Shown here: piece after piece, positions 42,294-48,613 of the stretch
Position numbering within the stretch: the first letter of the stretch is position 1
Layout of the letters: each line of letters begins with the position of its first letter
Source: Sellimonas caecigallum
Lineage (GTDB): Bacteria > Bacillota > Clostridia > Lachnospirales > Lachnospiraceae
Assembly (NCBI RefSeq): GCF_019754295.1
Contig: NZ_VIRV01000014.1
Location: 1-64,000 of the forward strand
DNA length: 64,000 bases
Direction of reading: 5' to 3'
Translations under genes and position numbers: made by a program
Notes under the pieces: generated by a model
Databases searched by the model: none
What the model was told of the DNA's origin: nothing
What the model saw: only the letters and a program-made list of their open reading frames with translations

Positions 42294-43145
42294 CTAGTCT
42301 TCATAACTGCTGTTTCCATCAGTATCTGCTTCATAACCAGAATCATTGCTGTTGTCATTTCCGTAATTTGAATTACCGCTATTATCGTTTTGATAATTAG
42401 AATCGTTGTTGGAGGAAGAAGGCTGCTGTACCGGCTGAGAAGAAGGAGTCTCAGGTTGGGGCTTGTCGGATGGTGTGTCTTCGGCCGGTTCAGGTGTATC
42501 CGGAGCAGGGATAGTAATTGTCTGAGGCTCCGTAAGTGTTTGTTCAGCGTCGTCATCAGGAAGTTCCGCCACAATTTCTATAGTAATGGACTTATCTTTC
42601 AGATAGTTATTTAAATAAGTCTGCAGTTCCTCTTCTGTTTGTGAATTCCAATCTTTATTTTCCGAATCAGCCAAAAGCAGGATTTGTCCGCCTTCAGAAA
42701 GGAAATCTTTTTGTATTGCCAGAGCTGTAAGCTCGGAAGTAACAGTTTCTTTGTCTTTTCCTTTATACTCATAGCCGTCTATAAGCGTCTTACCGTCCGA
42801 ATTTCGTCCGCTCAGATCTAATACACGTCCGGAACGGCTAAGTGTGAGTTCTATTTCCGGATTGATCTGCATCTGAACGGTTCCGTATGGTCGGAAGATG
42901 TATTGATATTCATATACGCCGAATACGAGCAGGGAAATGCAGGCTGCCATGCTGGCAGCAAATGTGATAATGTGACGGTGCTGCCGTTTCTTCTCGTCGG
43001 GATATTTTAGAGGAATAATGTTGGTAACGACATCTCCGGTCTGGTAACCGTGGTTAGCAGCTTTTATGAAACGTCCGTCATCGGACAGAAGGACCGCATA
43101 TGCACTGTGAACTTCCATTACTAGATAAGATGTATCTTTTTTCAT
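42294..43145 (-). CDS. rsgI: RsgI-type anti-sigma factor
   Basis: Membrane anti-sigma factor that holds SigI until an outside signal releases it. A cytoplasmic RsgI N-terminal domain (about residues 1-50) binds the sigma factor. One membrane helix (about 58-80) precedes an extracytoplasmic domain containing an Asn-Pro at residues 95-96 (codons at 42863-42858), inside QINPEIEL. In RsgI proteins this Asn-Pro is the known self-cleavage site. A Pro/Ser/Gln-rich linker and an Asn/Ser/Tyr/Asp-rich tail follow. The start at ATG 43145 is chosen because GGAG lies 6 bases before it, inside the codons that would follow the upstream ATG at 43157. It is 37 bases downstream of sigI. Confidence 0.88.
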   Translation of the reverse strand: MKKDTSYLVMEVHSAYAVLLSDDGRFIKAANHGYQTGDVVTNIIPLKYPDEKKRQHRHIITFAASMAACISLLVFGVYEYQYIFRPYGTVQMQINPEIELTLSRSGRVLDLSGRNSDGKTLIDGYEYKGKDKETVTSELTALAIQKDFLSEGGQILLLADSENKDWNSQTEEELQTYLNNYLKDKSITIEIVAELPDDDAEQTLTEPQTITIPAPDTPEPAEDTPSDKPQPETPSSQPVQQPSSSNNDSNYQNDNSGNSNYGNDNSNDSGYEADTDGNSSYED

Positions 43146-43182
43146 TTTTGACTCCATTTCTGTTATGGTTCATCGGTTTTTG

Positions 43183-43899
43183 TTAAGGGGACAGATGATA
43201 GAGATGTCCGCGGATGATTTCATATCCATTAGTAAATGCAAGCAAAATTGCAATCAGATATTTCCGGTGCCTTTCTATTGTTTTTTTATCTACTCCAGAG
43301 TGTTGTACAAGAGCTGTTATCGGAAGTTTTTTTGTATGTAGCATCTCATTAAGAAGATCCGGATTTTGTTTTGCGGCGGACAGGACTTTTTCACAGGCCT
43401 GTAAAGTTCGCTTCTGCCTTGGACAGTTGTCTGCCACCTCAGAAAAAGAAATTCCAAACGTAAGAAGCTGTCTTTCGAATTCTTCGATTTCTTCTTTTGC
43501 TGCGGCACGCTGGTGTGTCATTTCGATTTCATTTTTAGGATCCTCCAGATGGTCGATTTTCAGAGTATCTTCTTCGTCGTCCTGCAAAGGCTCGTGGAGG
43601 GAAACTACTTTTGCATGCCGCTTTTCTTTTCTGTAATAATCGATCAGCCGGTTGCGTATACCACGGGATGCAAATGCGAGAAAAGCTCCTCGCTTCCTTT
43701 CATAATTTAAAATCGCTTCGTAAAAGGCAAGCATCACGATGCTTAGTTCTTCGTCCTGCCCTTCGATGGGGGTCCGTTTAATGAATTTTATTGTTTCAGC
43801 ACGGATAAACCCCATATACTGACGAATCAAAGCATCTGCCACTTCTGGATCTGTCTTGGCAGTGTATACTTGATCAGCAAGATCATGCAGTTCATTCAT
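43183..43899 (-). CDS. sigI: RNA polymerase sigma factor SigI
   Basis: Alternative sigma-70-family factor of the SigI group, 238 aa. The N-terminal region has a sigma region 2-like core (about residues 25-95) with QDEELSIVMLAFYEAILNYE and FLAFASRGIRNRLIDYYRKE. A C-terminal SigI-specific region follows, with a helix-turn-helix-like stretch around ALVQHSGVDKKTIERHRKYL (about 203-222). The start has AGGAGG well placed. It is transcribed with rsgI. Upstream lies the motif ACCC-N20-CGTATTCTA, identical to the one before the divergent lipoprotein gene, which fits autoregulation by SigI. Confidence 0.92.
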   Translation of the reverse strand: MNELHDLADQVYTAKTDPEVADALIRQYMGFIRAETIKFIKRTPIEGQDEELSIVMLAFYEAILNYERKRGAFLAFASRGIRNRLIDYYRKEKRHAKVVSLHEPLQDDEEDTLKIDHLEDPKNEIEMTHQRAAAKEEIEEFERQLLTFGISFSEVADNCPRQKRTLQACEKVLSAAKQNPDLLNEMLHTKKLPITALVQHSGVDKKTIERHRKYLIAILLAFTNGYEIIRGHLYHLSP

Positions 43900-43920: not shown

Positions 43921-43953
43921 TAGAATACGAACTGGAATTTTTATTTTTAGGGT
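43921..43953 (-). promoter_or_regulatory. Putative SigI-dependent promoter of sigI-rsgI
   Basis: On the minus strand, ACCC (43953-43950), 20 bases, then CGTATTCTA (43929-43921). It lies 22 bases before the sigI start. The same elements at the same spacing occur before the divergent operon. Known SigI promoters use an ACCCCC-like -35 and a CGAA-like -10, so the -35 half agrees and the -10 half differs in part. Confidence 0.65.
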
Positions 43954-44100
43954 CAAAACTAAAATATTACACCCATTATATTTTTTCTTTGTTAAAAGCA
44001 GGTAATATATATGTTAAACATAGGTAAAATGTAAGACACGAAAAAAATTATCTATTATAATAAATGCAGCGGAAAAAAATATAAAAAAATTTTTGTTTCA

Positions 44101-44133
44101 ACCCCGTTTTCCGGATTTTGCTTACGTATTCTA
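44101..44133 (+). promoter_or_regulatory. Putative SigI-dependent promoter of the lipoprotein-VTC-CotH operon
   Basis: ACCC (44101-44104), followed by C to give ACCCC; 20-base spacer; CGTATTCTA (44125-44133), 46 bases before the lipoprotein start. A-rich tracts lie just upstream, as seen in several SigI promoters. It matches the minus-strand sigI promoter base for base at both elements. Confidence 0.65.
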
Positions 44134-44179: not shown

Positions 44180-45115
44180 ATGAAGAAAAAACATTGTATT
44201 ACGGTGCTTGCAGCAGTATTGACAGTTGGGCTTATGGGAGGAATCCTTGCAGGATGCGGAAGTAGGAGACAGGTGCAGGAACCGCAGAAACAACAGAGCC
44301 AGACAAATGAAAAGAGCGGAGTTATCTGTCTTAAAGTAAATCCGGAAATTGCAGTGTCTTATGATGAAAACGGAATGGTAACAAAAGTAGAGGGAAGAAA
44401 CGATGACGGGAAGAAAGTGATTGCCCAATATGAAGGATATGAAGGAAAGGCATGCAGAGATGTCATCAGTGAACTTGTAGCGAAGATCAACGATGCCGGC
44501 TATTTCGTAGAAGAAACAGATCAGGAGAAAAAACAGATCACACTTGAAATAGAAGCCGGATCCTATCTTCCGGGAGATGATTTTCTGAAAAATATTGTGG
44601 CTGGCGTTCAGGAATATACAGCTTCCAAACAGTTGCCGAATTCAGTAGCCGTAGAAGGGGAAAGCAACTATGGATGGACAAATTACGGTGATACAGATTA
44701 TGGCCCGGATAATGACGGAGTGACAGACTATAATGATACAGATTACGGCCCGAATAATGACGGAGTGACAGACTATAATGATACAGACTACGGCCCGAAT
44801 AATGACGGAGTGACAGACTATAATGATACAGATTACGGCCCGAATAATGACGGAGTGACAGACTATAATGATACGGATTACGGCCCAAACAATGATGGTG
44901 TGACGGATTATAATGATACAGACTATGGTACAAATAGTGATGGTGTGACAGATTACAGTGCTCCGGCACAAAATCCGGCTCCGTCAACACCTGCACCATC
45001 AACTGGCGGAGATTCTGGATATGACGATGGAAATTCCGGATATGACGGCGGAAACTCCGGATATGATGATGGAAATTCCGGATATGACGGCGGAGATTCC
45101 GGATATGATGATTAA
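44180..45115 (+). CDS. Lipoprotein with RsgI-like extracytoplasmic domain and acidic tandem repeats
   Basis: Exported lipoprotein of 311 aa; lipobox LAGC puts the lipidated Cys at residue 26. Residues 46-150 match the extracytoplasmic domain of the neighbouring RsgI: VNPEI against INPEI, then GRNDDGKKVI against GRNSDGKTLI. The match includes the Asn-Pro (54-55) used by RsgI for self-cleavage. Six 15-residue repeats (about 172-261) with the pattern TDYGPNNDGVTDYND follow. A Pro-rich joint and a Gly/Asn/Ser-Tyr-Asp tail come last. The repeats resemble calcium-binding loops. It has no sigma-binding domain, so it is not itself an anti-sigma factor. It is the first gene of an operon with VTC, DUF4956 and CotH genes. 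Confidence 0.8.
   Translation: MKKKHCITVLAAVLTVGLMGGILAGCGSRRQVQEPQKQQSQTNEKSGVICLKVNPEIAVSYDENGMVTKVEGRNDDGKKVIAQYEGYEGKACRDVISELVAKINDAGYFVEETDQEKKQITLEIEAGSYLPGDDFLKNIVAGVQEYTASKQLPNSVAVEGESNYGWTNYGDTDYGPDNDGVTDYNDTDYGPNNDGVTDYNDTDYGPNNDGVTDYNDTDYGPNNDGVTDYNDTDYGPNNDGVTDYNDTDYGTNSDGVTDYSAPAQNPAPSTPAPSTGGDSGYDDGNSGYDGGNSGYDDGNSGYDGGDSGYDD
44693..44962 (+). repeat. Six tandem 45-bp coding repeats
   Basis: Six in-frame copies of a 45-bp unit (15 codons) inside the lipoprotein gene. The middle copies are almost identical at the DNA level, while the first and last have drifted. Such homogeneity suggests recent expansion or ongoing recombination, and copy number probably varies between strains. 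Confidence 0.92.
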
Positions 45116-45800
45116 AAAAACACAAAGCATATTCAGACATGAATTAAAACATGTGATTACCCCGGCAGAAGACAGGTTGCTTTCAGAACGTCTCGGCAGG
45201 CTGTTCCCCCGCGACAGCCATGCCGGGAAGAGGGGAGTATATAATGTGAACAGCCTGTATTTTGATACGCCTAACGACAAAGCTCTTGTTGAAAAAATTG
45301 CAGGGGTAAGCAGCAGGGAGAAATTTCGGTTGAGATACTACGGAGAAGATCTGACTTTTTTAAGGTTAGAAAAAAAGATAAAAAAAGGCGGGTTATGTTC
45401 AAAACGGAGCGCCAATCTCACTTATGAACAGGCGGCAAGCTTGCTTGCGGGGGAAATTGCATTTCTTCTCGAGAGCGAAGATCCTCTTTTGATTGAGCTG
45501 TACAGCAAGATGAAAGGGGAACTCCTGAGACCAAAAACGATCGTAAGATACGAAAGAGAAGCATTTACATATATGCCGGGCAACGTGCGCATCACATTAG
45601 ATCGGAAGCTTCATACAGGGCTTTACAACCTGGATTTTTTGAATACCAAAAGACGGTATATAGCTGCTGCGCCGGGCCACACTGTACTTGAAGTAAAATA
45701 TGATGCTTTTTTACCGGATATTGTAAAGATGTCGGTGCAGATGCCGGATAGAAAGACAGGGGCATACTCCAAATATGCGGTGTGCCGAAAATATGATTGA
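45108..45800 (+). CDS. VTC-domain protein (polyphosphate polymerase-like)
   Basis: Member of the VTC branch of the triphosphate tunnel metalloenzymes, about 230 aa, without membrane helices. Tunnel-type basic and acidic strands are visible: FRHELKHVI near the start, NSLYFDTP, FRLRYYG, RLEKKIKKGG, KTIVRYEREAF, RITLDRKL, and LEVKYD near the end. In yeast, VTC proteins make polyphosphate from ATP; the activity of the bacterial forms is less certain. Start ATG 45105 or 45108 overlaps the lipoprotein stop, so translation is coupled; longer in-frame extensions run through the repeat DNA and are not credible. Confidence 0.85.
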   Translation: MIKKTQSIFRHELKHVITPAEDRLLSERLGRLFPRDSHAGKRGVYNVNSLYFDTPNDKALVEKIAGVSSREKFRLRYYGEDLTFLRLEKKIKKGGLCSKRSANLTYEQAASLLAGEIAFLLESEDPLLIELYSKMKGELLRPKTIVRYEREAFTYMPGNVRITLDRKLHTGLYNLDFLNTKRRYIAAAPGHTVLEVKYDAFLPDIVKMSVQMPDRKTGAYSKYAVCRKYD

Positions 45801-45818: not shown

Positions 45819-46490
45819 ATGACATTTCAGGATATCTTTAAATCCAGTTTTTTGGAACATGCAAACGCAGTACCGATTCTGGATATGACGTTGGCCCTTA
45901 TCCTCGCATTTGCTCTTGGGCTGTTCATTTTCTTTATATATAAAAAAAGTTACTGTGGACTGATGTATTCCGCTTCTTTTGGAGTGACGCTCATAGCGCT
46001 TACATTGATCACAACCCTTTTGATTCTGGCTGTGACAAGCAATATCGTACTTTCACTTGGTATGGTAGGTGCACTTTCAATTGTCAGATTCCGGACTGCG
46101 ATTAAGGAGCCGATGGATATCGCGTTCCTTTTTTGGAGCATTGCGGCGGGGATTGTTTTGGCGGCAGGTTTTCTGCCTCTTGCGGTATTTGGCAGCATGT
46201 TCATTGGAATTATACTTCTGGTATTTTCAGGAAGAAAAAATCTGGAGCGTCCTTATATCTTGGTAGTACATTGTCAGACAGACTCCCAGGAAAAAGAGGT
46301 GGAGCAGTATGTTAAAAGTCATGTAAAAGGACTTAAGCTGAAAAGCAAATCTGTATCGCCTGGGTGTATTGAATTAAATTATGAAGTACGTTTTAAAGAA
46401 GGGGAGTCGTCCTTCGTCAATGCAGTTGCTGAAATTGAAGGTGTGACGCAGACAGTACTTGTTTCTTACAATGGAGATTATATGGGGTAG
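45819..46490 (+). CDS. DUF4956 membrane protein
   Basis: Polytopic membrane protein of 223 aa with about four helices in residues 20-140 and a cytoplasmic ferredoxin-like C-terminal domain of about 80 residues. The motif GMVGALSIVRFRTAIKEP (about residues 76-93) is the characteristic core of the DUF4956 family, which regularly accompanies VTC-domain and CotH genes. Function unknown; a role in moving or sensing polyphosphate has been suggested by this association only. It lies 18 bases after the VTC gene. Confidence 0.85.
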   Translation: MTFQDIFKSSFLEHANAVPILDMTLALILAFALGLFIFFIYKKSYCGLMYSASFGVTLIALTLITTLLILAVTSNIVLSLGMVGALSIVRFRTAIKEPMDIAFLFWSIAAGIVLAAGFLPLAVFGSMFIGIILLVFSGRKNLERPYILVVHCQTDSQEKEVEQYVKSHVKGLKLKSKSVSPGCIELNYEVRFKEGESSFVNAVAEIEGVTQTVLVSYNGDYMG

Positions 46491-46495
46491 CAAAT

Positions 46496-47899
46496 ATGCT
46501 GAAGCATAGATATATTGATATTATCTGTATCAGTACTGCTGTTGCAGCTTGCATTCTCACAGTTTTGTTTTTGTGCGGAGAAAGGTTGGGGATACGTCCG
46601 GCAAGTTCTGTACCAGATTACGCATCGCGTCTTTTTGATAACAGCTATGTACATTTGATTGATATAAAAATCAATGATTGGGAAAGATTTCTCGAAACGG
46701 CGTCAGAGGAAGAGTATACAGAATGTGATGTAGAGATTGACGGGGAATTATTTTCTTCCATCGGATTGCGTGCCAAAGGAAACAATTCTCTTAGACTTGT
46801 AGAAGAATATGGGCTGGATCGGTATAGCCTGAAGTTGGAATTTGACCATTTTCAGGATGGCAATACATATTATGGGCTGGACAAGTTCTCGTTGGATTCG
46901 TCATATCAGGATAATAGCTATATGAAAAATTACCTGGCTTATGACATGATGGCATATATGGGAGTGCCTGCGCCTTTGTGCAGCTATACAGAAGTAACAG
47001 TGAATGGAAAAGCTTGGGGGTTGTTTTTGGTGGTGGAAGAGCCGGAAGAGGCTTTCGCCAGACGTAATTATGGGACGGATCACGGTCAGCTTTACAAGCC
47101 GGACTACCGTTCTTTGGAAGAAGAAAATCGAGATGTGGCACTGCAATATATATCAGATGATCCGGCAGATTACGATAATATTTTTCGCAATGCAAAATTC
47201 AATGTAAAAGAAGAGGATAAAAAAAGATTGATCCAGTCATTGCGGACTCTGTCAGAAGGTAAGGATCTGGAGCTGGCAGTAAATGTGGATGAAGTGTTTC
47301 GCTATTTTGTCGTGCAGGTGTTTGTTGTAAACCTGGACAGCTATCTGGGACGTACAGGACACAATTATTTTCTGTACGAAAAAGACGGACTGATCAGTAT
47401 GCTTCCCTGGGACTACAATCTTGCGTTTGCCACCTACTCTCTAGGGATGCCGAATCCAATCAATGACGCAGAGCTTTATGTCAACTATCCGATCGATACT
47501 CCCGGATCCGGAGAGATTATGATGAACCGGCCCCTATATCATAATCTTATGAAACAAGACAAATATTTTTCAAAGTATCATACTTATTTTAGTGACTTTA
47601 TCAAGGGATATTTTGAAAATGGACGTTTTGAAAAAAAGATTGCCAGTACAATAAAGATGATTGCCCCGTATGTGAAAAAAGATGCGACAGCGTTCTGCTC
47701 TTATGAGGATTTTCTAACCGGGGCAGAGACCATTGGAAAATTTTGCTTACTTCGTGCAGAAAGTGTCAGAGCACAGCTGGAAGGAAAGATTCCATCCACC
47801 ATACGAGGGCAGCAGAAAGATACGGAAAGCCGCGTAGATGCGTCGGACATCTGGCTGCCGGATATGGGAGAAATTGCGGATTTAGAGAAAGGCATGTAA
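46496..47899 (+). CDS. CotH-family kinase-like protein
   Basis: Secreted or membrane-anchored protein of 467 aa with an N-terminal hydrophobic helix (about residues 9-28). The CotH domain (about 75-380) has the expected landmarks: LRAKGNNSL, YSLKLEFDHF, GLDKFSLDSSYQDNSYMKN, the EVTVNGKAWGLFLVVEE region, and the metal-binding LPWDYNLAF with its Asp-x-Asn. CotH of Bacillus is a spore-coat kinase; extracellular homologues in vegetative cells are common in Clostridia. It starts 5 bases after the DUF4956 gene and ends the operon. Confidence 0.88.
   Translation: MLKHRYIDIICISTAVAACILTVLFLCGERLGIRPASSVPDYASRLFDNSYVHLIDIKINDWERFLETASEEEYTECDVEIDGELFSSIGLRAKGNNSLRLVEEYGLDRYSLKLEFDHFQDGNTYYGLDKFSLDSSYQDNSYMKNYLAYDMMAYMGVPAPLCSYTEVTVNGKAWGLFLVVEEPEEAFARRNYGTDHGQLYKPDYRSLEEENRDVALQYISDDPADYDNIFRNAKFNVKEEDKKRLIQSLRTLSEGKDLELAVNVDEVFRYFVVQVFVVNLDSYLGRTGHNYFLYEKDGLISMLPWDYNLAFATYSLGMPNPINDAELYVNYPIDTPGSGEIMMNRPLYHNLMKQDKYFSKYHTYFSDFIKGYFENGRFEKKIASTIKMIAPYVKKDATAFCSYEDFLTGAETIGKFCLLRAESVRAQLEGKIPSTIRGQQKDTESRVDASDIWLPDMGEIADLEKGM

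Positions 47900-48154: not shown

Positions 48155-48613
<459 letters not shown>

Follow-up and report, generated by a model that had tools for sequence, protein, structure and literature searches.

Two divergent promoter motifs in the 64,000-nucleotide stretch of Sellimonas caecigallum DNA analysed here (the window) are very probably both promoters of the alternative sigma factor SigI, whose regulon would consist of its own operon and a second operon headed by a lipoprotein with the SEAL domain of the anti-sigma factor RsgI, as judged from sequence comparison and a structure model. The arrangement is most likely a closed, autoregulated SigI-RsgI circuit, closed and dedicated because no further targets are evident in this genome, and its output would be a look-alike of the RsgI ectodomain together with a VTC/DUF4956/CotH module. 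SigI has known roles in heat and wall stress in Bacillus and in polysaccharide sensing in cellulolytic clostridia. In the present case, a gut-commensal SigI is given a specific recognition sequence and a regulon that is small and open to testing, and an uncharacterised VTC-DUF4956-CotH module is linked to an envelope-sensing sigma factor. The presence of a self-cleaving SEAL domain in a protein unable to signal inward also raises the question of what SEAL cleavage is for outside anti-sigma factors.

A SigI-RsgI pair and two matching predicted promoters

The locus contains the following features, with positions given in the window.

42294..43157, minus strand: rsgI, membrane anti-sigma factor with RsgI_N, hydrophobic segment, SEAL/RsgI_M domain and acidic low-complexity tail
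42858..42863, minus strand: codons of the predicted Asn99-Pro100 self-cleavage site of RsgI, assigned by sequence; site conserved in orthologues
43183..43899, minus strand: sigI, alternative sigma factor SigI (238 aa), assigned by NCBIfam SigI models and alignment to SigI structures
43921..43953, minus strand: predicted SigI-type promoter of sigI-rsgI, -35 ACCCTAAAAA (A-tract), -10 CGTATTCTA; conserved in orthologues
44101..44133, plus strand: predicted SigI-type promoter of the lipoprotein operon, -35 ACCCCGTTTT (T-tract), -10 CGTATTCTA; found in 53/53 orthologous loci
44180..45115, plus strand: SEAL lipoprotein with a signal peptide and lipobox LAGC26, RsgI_M/SEAL domain with N54-P55, repeats DTDYGPNNDGVTDYN and tail (NSGYDDG)n
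44339..44344, plus strand: codons of the predicted Asn54-Pro55 self-cleavage site of the lipoprotein; [IV]NPE[IVM] in 53/53
45105..45800, plus strand: VTC-domain protein, polyphosphate-polymerase-like (profile match 8.9e-34)
45819..46490, plus strand: DUF4956 membrane protein (profile match 4.8e-11)
46496..47899, plus strand: CotH-family kinase-like protein (profile match 1.6e-61; structure match 5jd9, 4.7e-13)

The sigma factor matches the NCBIfam SigI models with a best E of 1.6e-51, with scores that do not reach the curated cut-offs set for the individual SigI equivalog models. It possesses both sigma-70 region 2 and the SigI-specific C-terminal domain that define the family, and some 210 of its residues align with the C. 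thermocellum structures of SigI6 and SigI1. The histidine with which SigI6 contacts the minor groove (H171, in PKHRDS) is glutamine in this SigI and in its whole subfamily (P[RK]QxRT), so reading of the -35 element must differ in details from the solved structures. Among distant SigI proteins both His and Gln occur at this position, which is therefore not a strict family mark. The adjacent rsgI encodes an RsgI_M domain (4.3e-23) with an INP site, a hydrophobic segment at approximately residues 63-83 and an RsgI_N domain at 4.9e-5 (23.6 bits, just under the 25-bit cut-off), and thereby combines RsgI_N, one TM helix and RsgI_M with Asn-Pro as an RsgI-type anti-sigma factor does.

A sequence-only reading of the window had reported two copies of ACCC-N20-CGTATTCTA ahead of the two operons. 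Both copies are indeed present, with identical elements and spacers of exactly 20 bases: the sigI copy (43953-43921, minus strand) reads ACCC-TAAAAATAAAAATTCCAGTT-CGTATTCTA and the lipoprotein copy (44101-44133, plus strand) reads ACCC-CGTTTTCCGGATTTTGCTTA-CGTATTCTA. They are the 2 matches to this pattern in 64 kb, against 0.00 expected from 100 dinucleotide shuffles, and a second 13-base match would arise in this interval with a naive probability of ~6e-6. A feature overlooked in that reading, and also conserved in relatives, is that ACCC is followed by an A-run (TAAAAA) in the sigI copy and by a T-run (CGTTTT) in the lipoprotein copy. The whole-genome search that it had proposed added no further full copy anywhere in the 2.67 Mb with the patterns applied, whose strictness may have let degenerate targets elsewhere escape. 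ACCC-N17..23-CGTATTC matches 5 times, and only the window pair among these also fits ACCC-N19..21-CGTAWNCT. A wider regulon in this genome was rejected, as a looser pattern returned 3 off-locus matches against 3 in a reversed-pattern control.

Published SigI promoters have the pattern ACCCCC--AA-N15-CGAA in Bacillales, and CCCYYAAA with CGWA for SigI3 of C. thermocellum (PMC4711584). SigI reads the A-tract through its C-terminal domain, by way of the minor groove, and the W of CGWA adds to specificity (PMC10575876; PMC6056542). The window motifs match these patterns in elements and distance. The sigI copy has CCC followed by an A-tract in its -35 element (ACCCTAAAAA), and the -10 element is CGTA at SigI spacing (ACCC-N20/21-CGTA, versus N21 in the Bacillales consensus), whereas the lipoprotein promoter has a T-tract in place of the A-tract. 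As a guess, the glutamine at the SigI6 His171 position may go with tolerance of T-tracts. The system as a whole resembles SigI-RsgI of Bacillus subtilis and Clostridium thermocellum in its SigI family, in an RsgI with SEAL domain and Asn-Pro site, and in a sigI promoter combining an ACCCCC or CCC-A-tract -35 with a CGWA -10. It differs from them in an RsgI that bears an acidic disordered tail and no carbohydrate-binding module, in an output that is a SEAL lipoprotein operon rather than cellulosomal genes, and in the CGTATnCTA -10, the T-tract of the lipoprotein -35 and the Gln that replaces the A-tract-reading His.

Conservation of the motif across relatives and gene orders

The sequence-only reading had named absence of the motif upstream of sigI orthologues as evidence against its proposal. 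Orthologues were compared from named genomes (Mediterraneibacter, Merdimonas, Claveliimonas, Flavonifractor, Faecalibacterium, Gemmiger, Ruminococcus and others) and from the source family. By a fixed strict pattern, the motif lies upstream of sigI in 66/73 loci and upstream of the lipoprotein gene in 53/53, counts that take in close relatives and are not independent events; the expectation is 0.005 per region, with the rest of the same loci as background. Several of the 7 sigI regions missed by the strict pattern hold the motif with one small deviation. These counts and the match to published patterns support, on comparative evidence, the proposal that the motif is the recognition sequence of this SigI and that the lipoprotein-VTC-DUF4956-CotH operon belongs to its regulon.

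The motif that recurs upstream of both genes is ACCCCG-(A/T)4-N-CGTAT-N-CTA, with a consensus of (A/G)CCCCG-(A or T)4 ... CGTAT-N-CTA and 20-21 bases from ACCC to CGTA. Both elements are conserved and the mid-spacer carries little information; the conservation score of the CGTA tetrad is artificially raised by bases that the search pattern itself had fixed. In lipoprotein promoters the -35 element has the T-tract in 80/80 occurrences and is thus a conserved variant. In sigI promoters it is mostly ACCCCGAAAA, and an A-run prevails, with a T-tract in many members of the subfamily too.

With REARRANGEMENTS as natural tests, the motif is seen to persist across divergent, colinear and unlinked operon arrangements. 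The sigI-rsgI and lipoprotein operons are divergent in a Mediterraneibacter-like group, while most other lineages have a colinear sigI-rsgI-lipoprotein order, often followed by vtc-duf4956-cotH; there the SigI motif still lies between rsgI and the lipoprotein gene, often in at least two tandem copies. The motif is carried by a lipoprotein-vtc-duf4956-cotH operon that lies on a separate contig in Scatomonas merdavium (L179), and by the lipoprotein gene of genome G433, located on a different contig from sigI. In genome G003 (L177) and a Faecalibacterium locus (L081) the gene behind the motif encodes a secreted PepSY-like protein whose tail is rich in Asp, Trp and Arg, and the motif is absent from VTC-DUF4956 pairs that have no lipoprotein.

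One lipoprotein gene is preceded by four near-identical SigI-type promoters in tandem, ~105-115 bases apart (L204, 6406-6732). The PepSY-like protein of L177 (4462-4980), which has a SigI-type motif and a tail of DDDDRWDD repeats, comes from a genome whose sigI locus is without vtc-duf4956-cotH. In L207 (7243-7974), an in-frame TAG interrupts sigI while both promoters and rsgI look intact, and the gene may be a pseudogene, a sequencing error or a case of recoding.

Strong matches to the SigI subfamily (E < 1e-60; next best 5e-39) and to the lipoprotein family (E < 1e-41; next best 2e-14) fall in the same 7 genomes among 291 spread over class Clostridia. Six of the 7 were new to the analysis, and the motif can be recognised in all twelve of their sigI and lipoprotein upstream regions, in one of them with CGAA and in a few with minor departures of other kinds. 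Beyond the sigI loci, a scan of 19 genomes gave off-locus matches at control level (5 versus 4 for the reversed pattern). The scan of 22 other genomes gave 6 against 0. Four of the 6 precede an unlinked operon of lipoprotein-vtc-duf4956-cotH, a second sigI-rsgI-lipoprotein locus (two cases) and the gene of a secreted PepSY-like protein whose tail is poly-Asp/Trp/Arg.

A lipid-anchored SEAL domain and its operon

The lipoprotein contains an RsgI_M domain (2e-14; 54.7 bits against a 25.3-bit cut-off) that the sequence-only reading had overlooked. Lipobox-like motifs are found in 52/53 family members, including LAGC26 within the signal peptide here, and the alignment shows no variation at C1, N29, P30 and E31 of the mature core. 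The lipoprotein RsgI_M domains form one clade (99/99; 53 rows) apart from RsgI's own, in a tree from a short alignment that does not resolve the deep order; from their separation it follows that the copy is old. In the AF2 model of the lipoprotein core (pLDDT 82), Asn-Pro lies between strands 1 and 2, as in the periplasmic SEAL domains of RsgI. These domains are also the model's only strong structural matches, namely 8t9n (Z 14.2, 2.2 A over 106 residues) and five others (8hdj, 8hep, 8her, 8heq and 8u9o; Z 8.3-10), the next unrelated chain scoring 4.7. Sequence and predicted fold show that this lipid-anchored protein is an old copy of the self-cleaving SEAL domain on the extracellular side of RsgI, cleavage itself being predicted. 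Unlike RsgI SEAL proteins, it is anchored outside and has no cytoplasmic sigma-binding part, and hence its cleavage cannot itself signal inward.

Several colinear lipoproteins carry an added PepSY domain, and RsgI and the lipoprotein alike terminate in acidic low-complexity tails. At 44690-44950 of the window, DTDYGPNNDGVTDYN is encoded by 45-base repeats that are nearly perfect and likely to vary in copy number between strains.

Downstream, the probable start codon of the VTC gene overlaps the end of the lipoprotein gene. A sequence search of the VTC protein against solved structures gave no significant match. The same three families stand side by side in the cotH-PPP(VTC)-DUF4956 accessory set of Gram-positive Pel clusters (PMC7112168), whereas the module here is coupled to SigI/RsgI and a SEAL lipoprotein. 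In the literature searched, which left out three central papers on RsgI/SEAL autoproteolysis, no SigI regulon of this content was found, nor any paper with SigI and CotH, VTC or DUF4956 as a regulon. A short resolvase-like ORF, probably a truncated recombinase, follows soon after the CotH gene (48158-48586 of the window).

A proposed circuit and competing explanations

In characterised systems, RsgI holds SigI until its SEAL domain has cleaved itself, and SigI is then released by the site-2 protease RseP and a Clp protease (PMC12203970). By analogy, RsgI here presumably works likewise. Its SEAL domain would cut itself at Asn-Pro, with the halves staying joined until something acts on the outer part; the site-2 protease and Clp would then release SigI. 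Once freed from membrane RsgI, SigI would transcribe sigI-rsgI, in what would be positive autoregulation, along with the divergent lipoprotein-VTC-DUF4956-CotH operon, whose last three products may act on or with the lipoprotein. The lipoprotein itself would most likely meet the same ligand or modifying enzyme as the outer part of RsgI. Making it would both answer the stress and compete with RsgI, perhaps damping the signal; such competition or feedback is put forward tentatively, the remaining expectation going to a structural or substrate role. Equally tentative is the broader proposal that, in several families of gut Clostridia, the main conserved target of SigI is a lipid-anchored mimic of RsgI's self-cleaving ectodomain, by which the system may tune itself through a sensor decoy.

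A serious contender, if still short of probable, is a role for the lipoprotein as effector or substrate scaffold, its acidic tail being modified by CotH as a kinase with the help of VTC/DUF4956, while RsgI, having the same domain and kind of tail, would sense the state of this machine. The frequent proximity of vtc-duf4956-cotH is consistent with such a role, as are Ser/Thr/Tyr residues in acidic context in the tails of many species and the agreement of RsgI and lipoprotein tail styles across loci. This agreement, however, follows phylogeny. Within-locus co-evolution of tails was rejected, as resemblance is 0.09 within the same locus versus 0.10-0.12 between loci with SigI >75% identical; since close relatives show at least as much, it cannot serve as independent evidence. 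Furthermore, several loci have a lipoprotein gene with the SigI motif and no vtc/duf4956/cotH, some of those genomes having no VTC at all, and in many species the tails are nearly pure Asp/Trp/Arg with few phosphorylatable residues.

It is unlikely, though worth weighing, that the tails serve a polyanion defence in which, together with VTC polyphosphate, they bind cations such as Ca2+ or cationic antimicrobial peptides, the RsgI tail sensing these and SigI raising an anionic surface protein. Acidic tails occur both on the lipoproteins and on alternative targets that have no SEAL domain, and a VTC domain is encoded in the operon; against this, the tails range from Asp/Trp-rich to Thr-Asp-Tyr-Gly repeats, and both binding and VTC activity are putative.

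Control of both operons by another regulator, with CGTAT-N-CT as a sigma-A -10 element and ACCCCG(A/T)4 as an activator site, is decidedly improbable. In relatives the -10 element is CGTATACT, which resembles the sigma-A -10 hexamer in that it contains TATACT, one base off TATAAT. As in SigI promoters, however, the best-conserved tetrad takes in the CG ahead of TA, and the bases that directly follow CGTA are variable. ACCC and an A-tract at this distance are the published SigI -35 element (PMC4711584), and the motif's gene pair travels with the SigI subfamily in 7/7 genomes. A chance resemblance of two AT-rich intergenic segments, in favour of which nothing was found, is refuted by motif conservation, with the shuffle result also against it, and has a negligible probability. 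ECF promoters have a shorter element spacing than the 22 bases that an ECF-type reading of the lipoprotein promoter (AAC...CGTA) would entail, and this reading was rejected as too long.

A second RsgI_M protein with an INP site is encoded on contig C7 of the same genome (L126, 5612-7224). It was considered as the partner of a second SigI and rejected, as the sigma factor preceding it is ECF-like instead. With that sigma factor it makes up another sigma/SEAL anti-sigma pair, and it is also preceded by a small secreted protein with DTDNNGICDN repeats of calcium-binding appearance.
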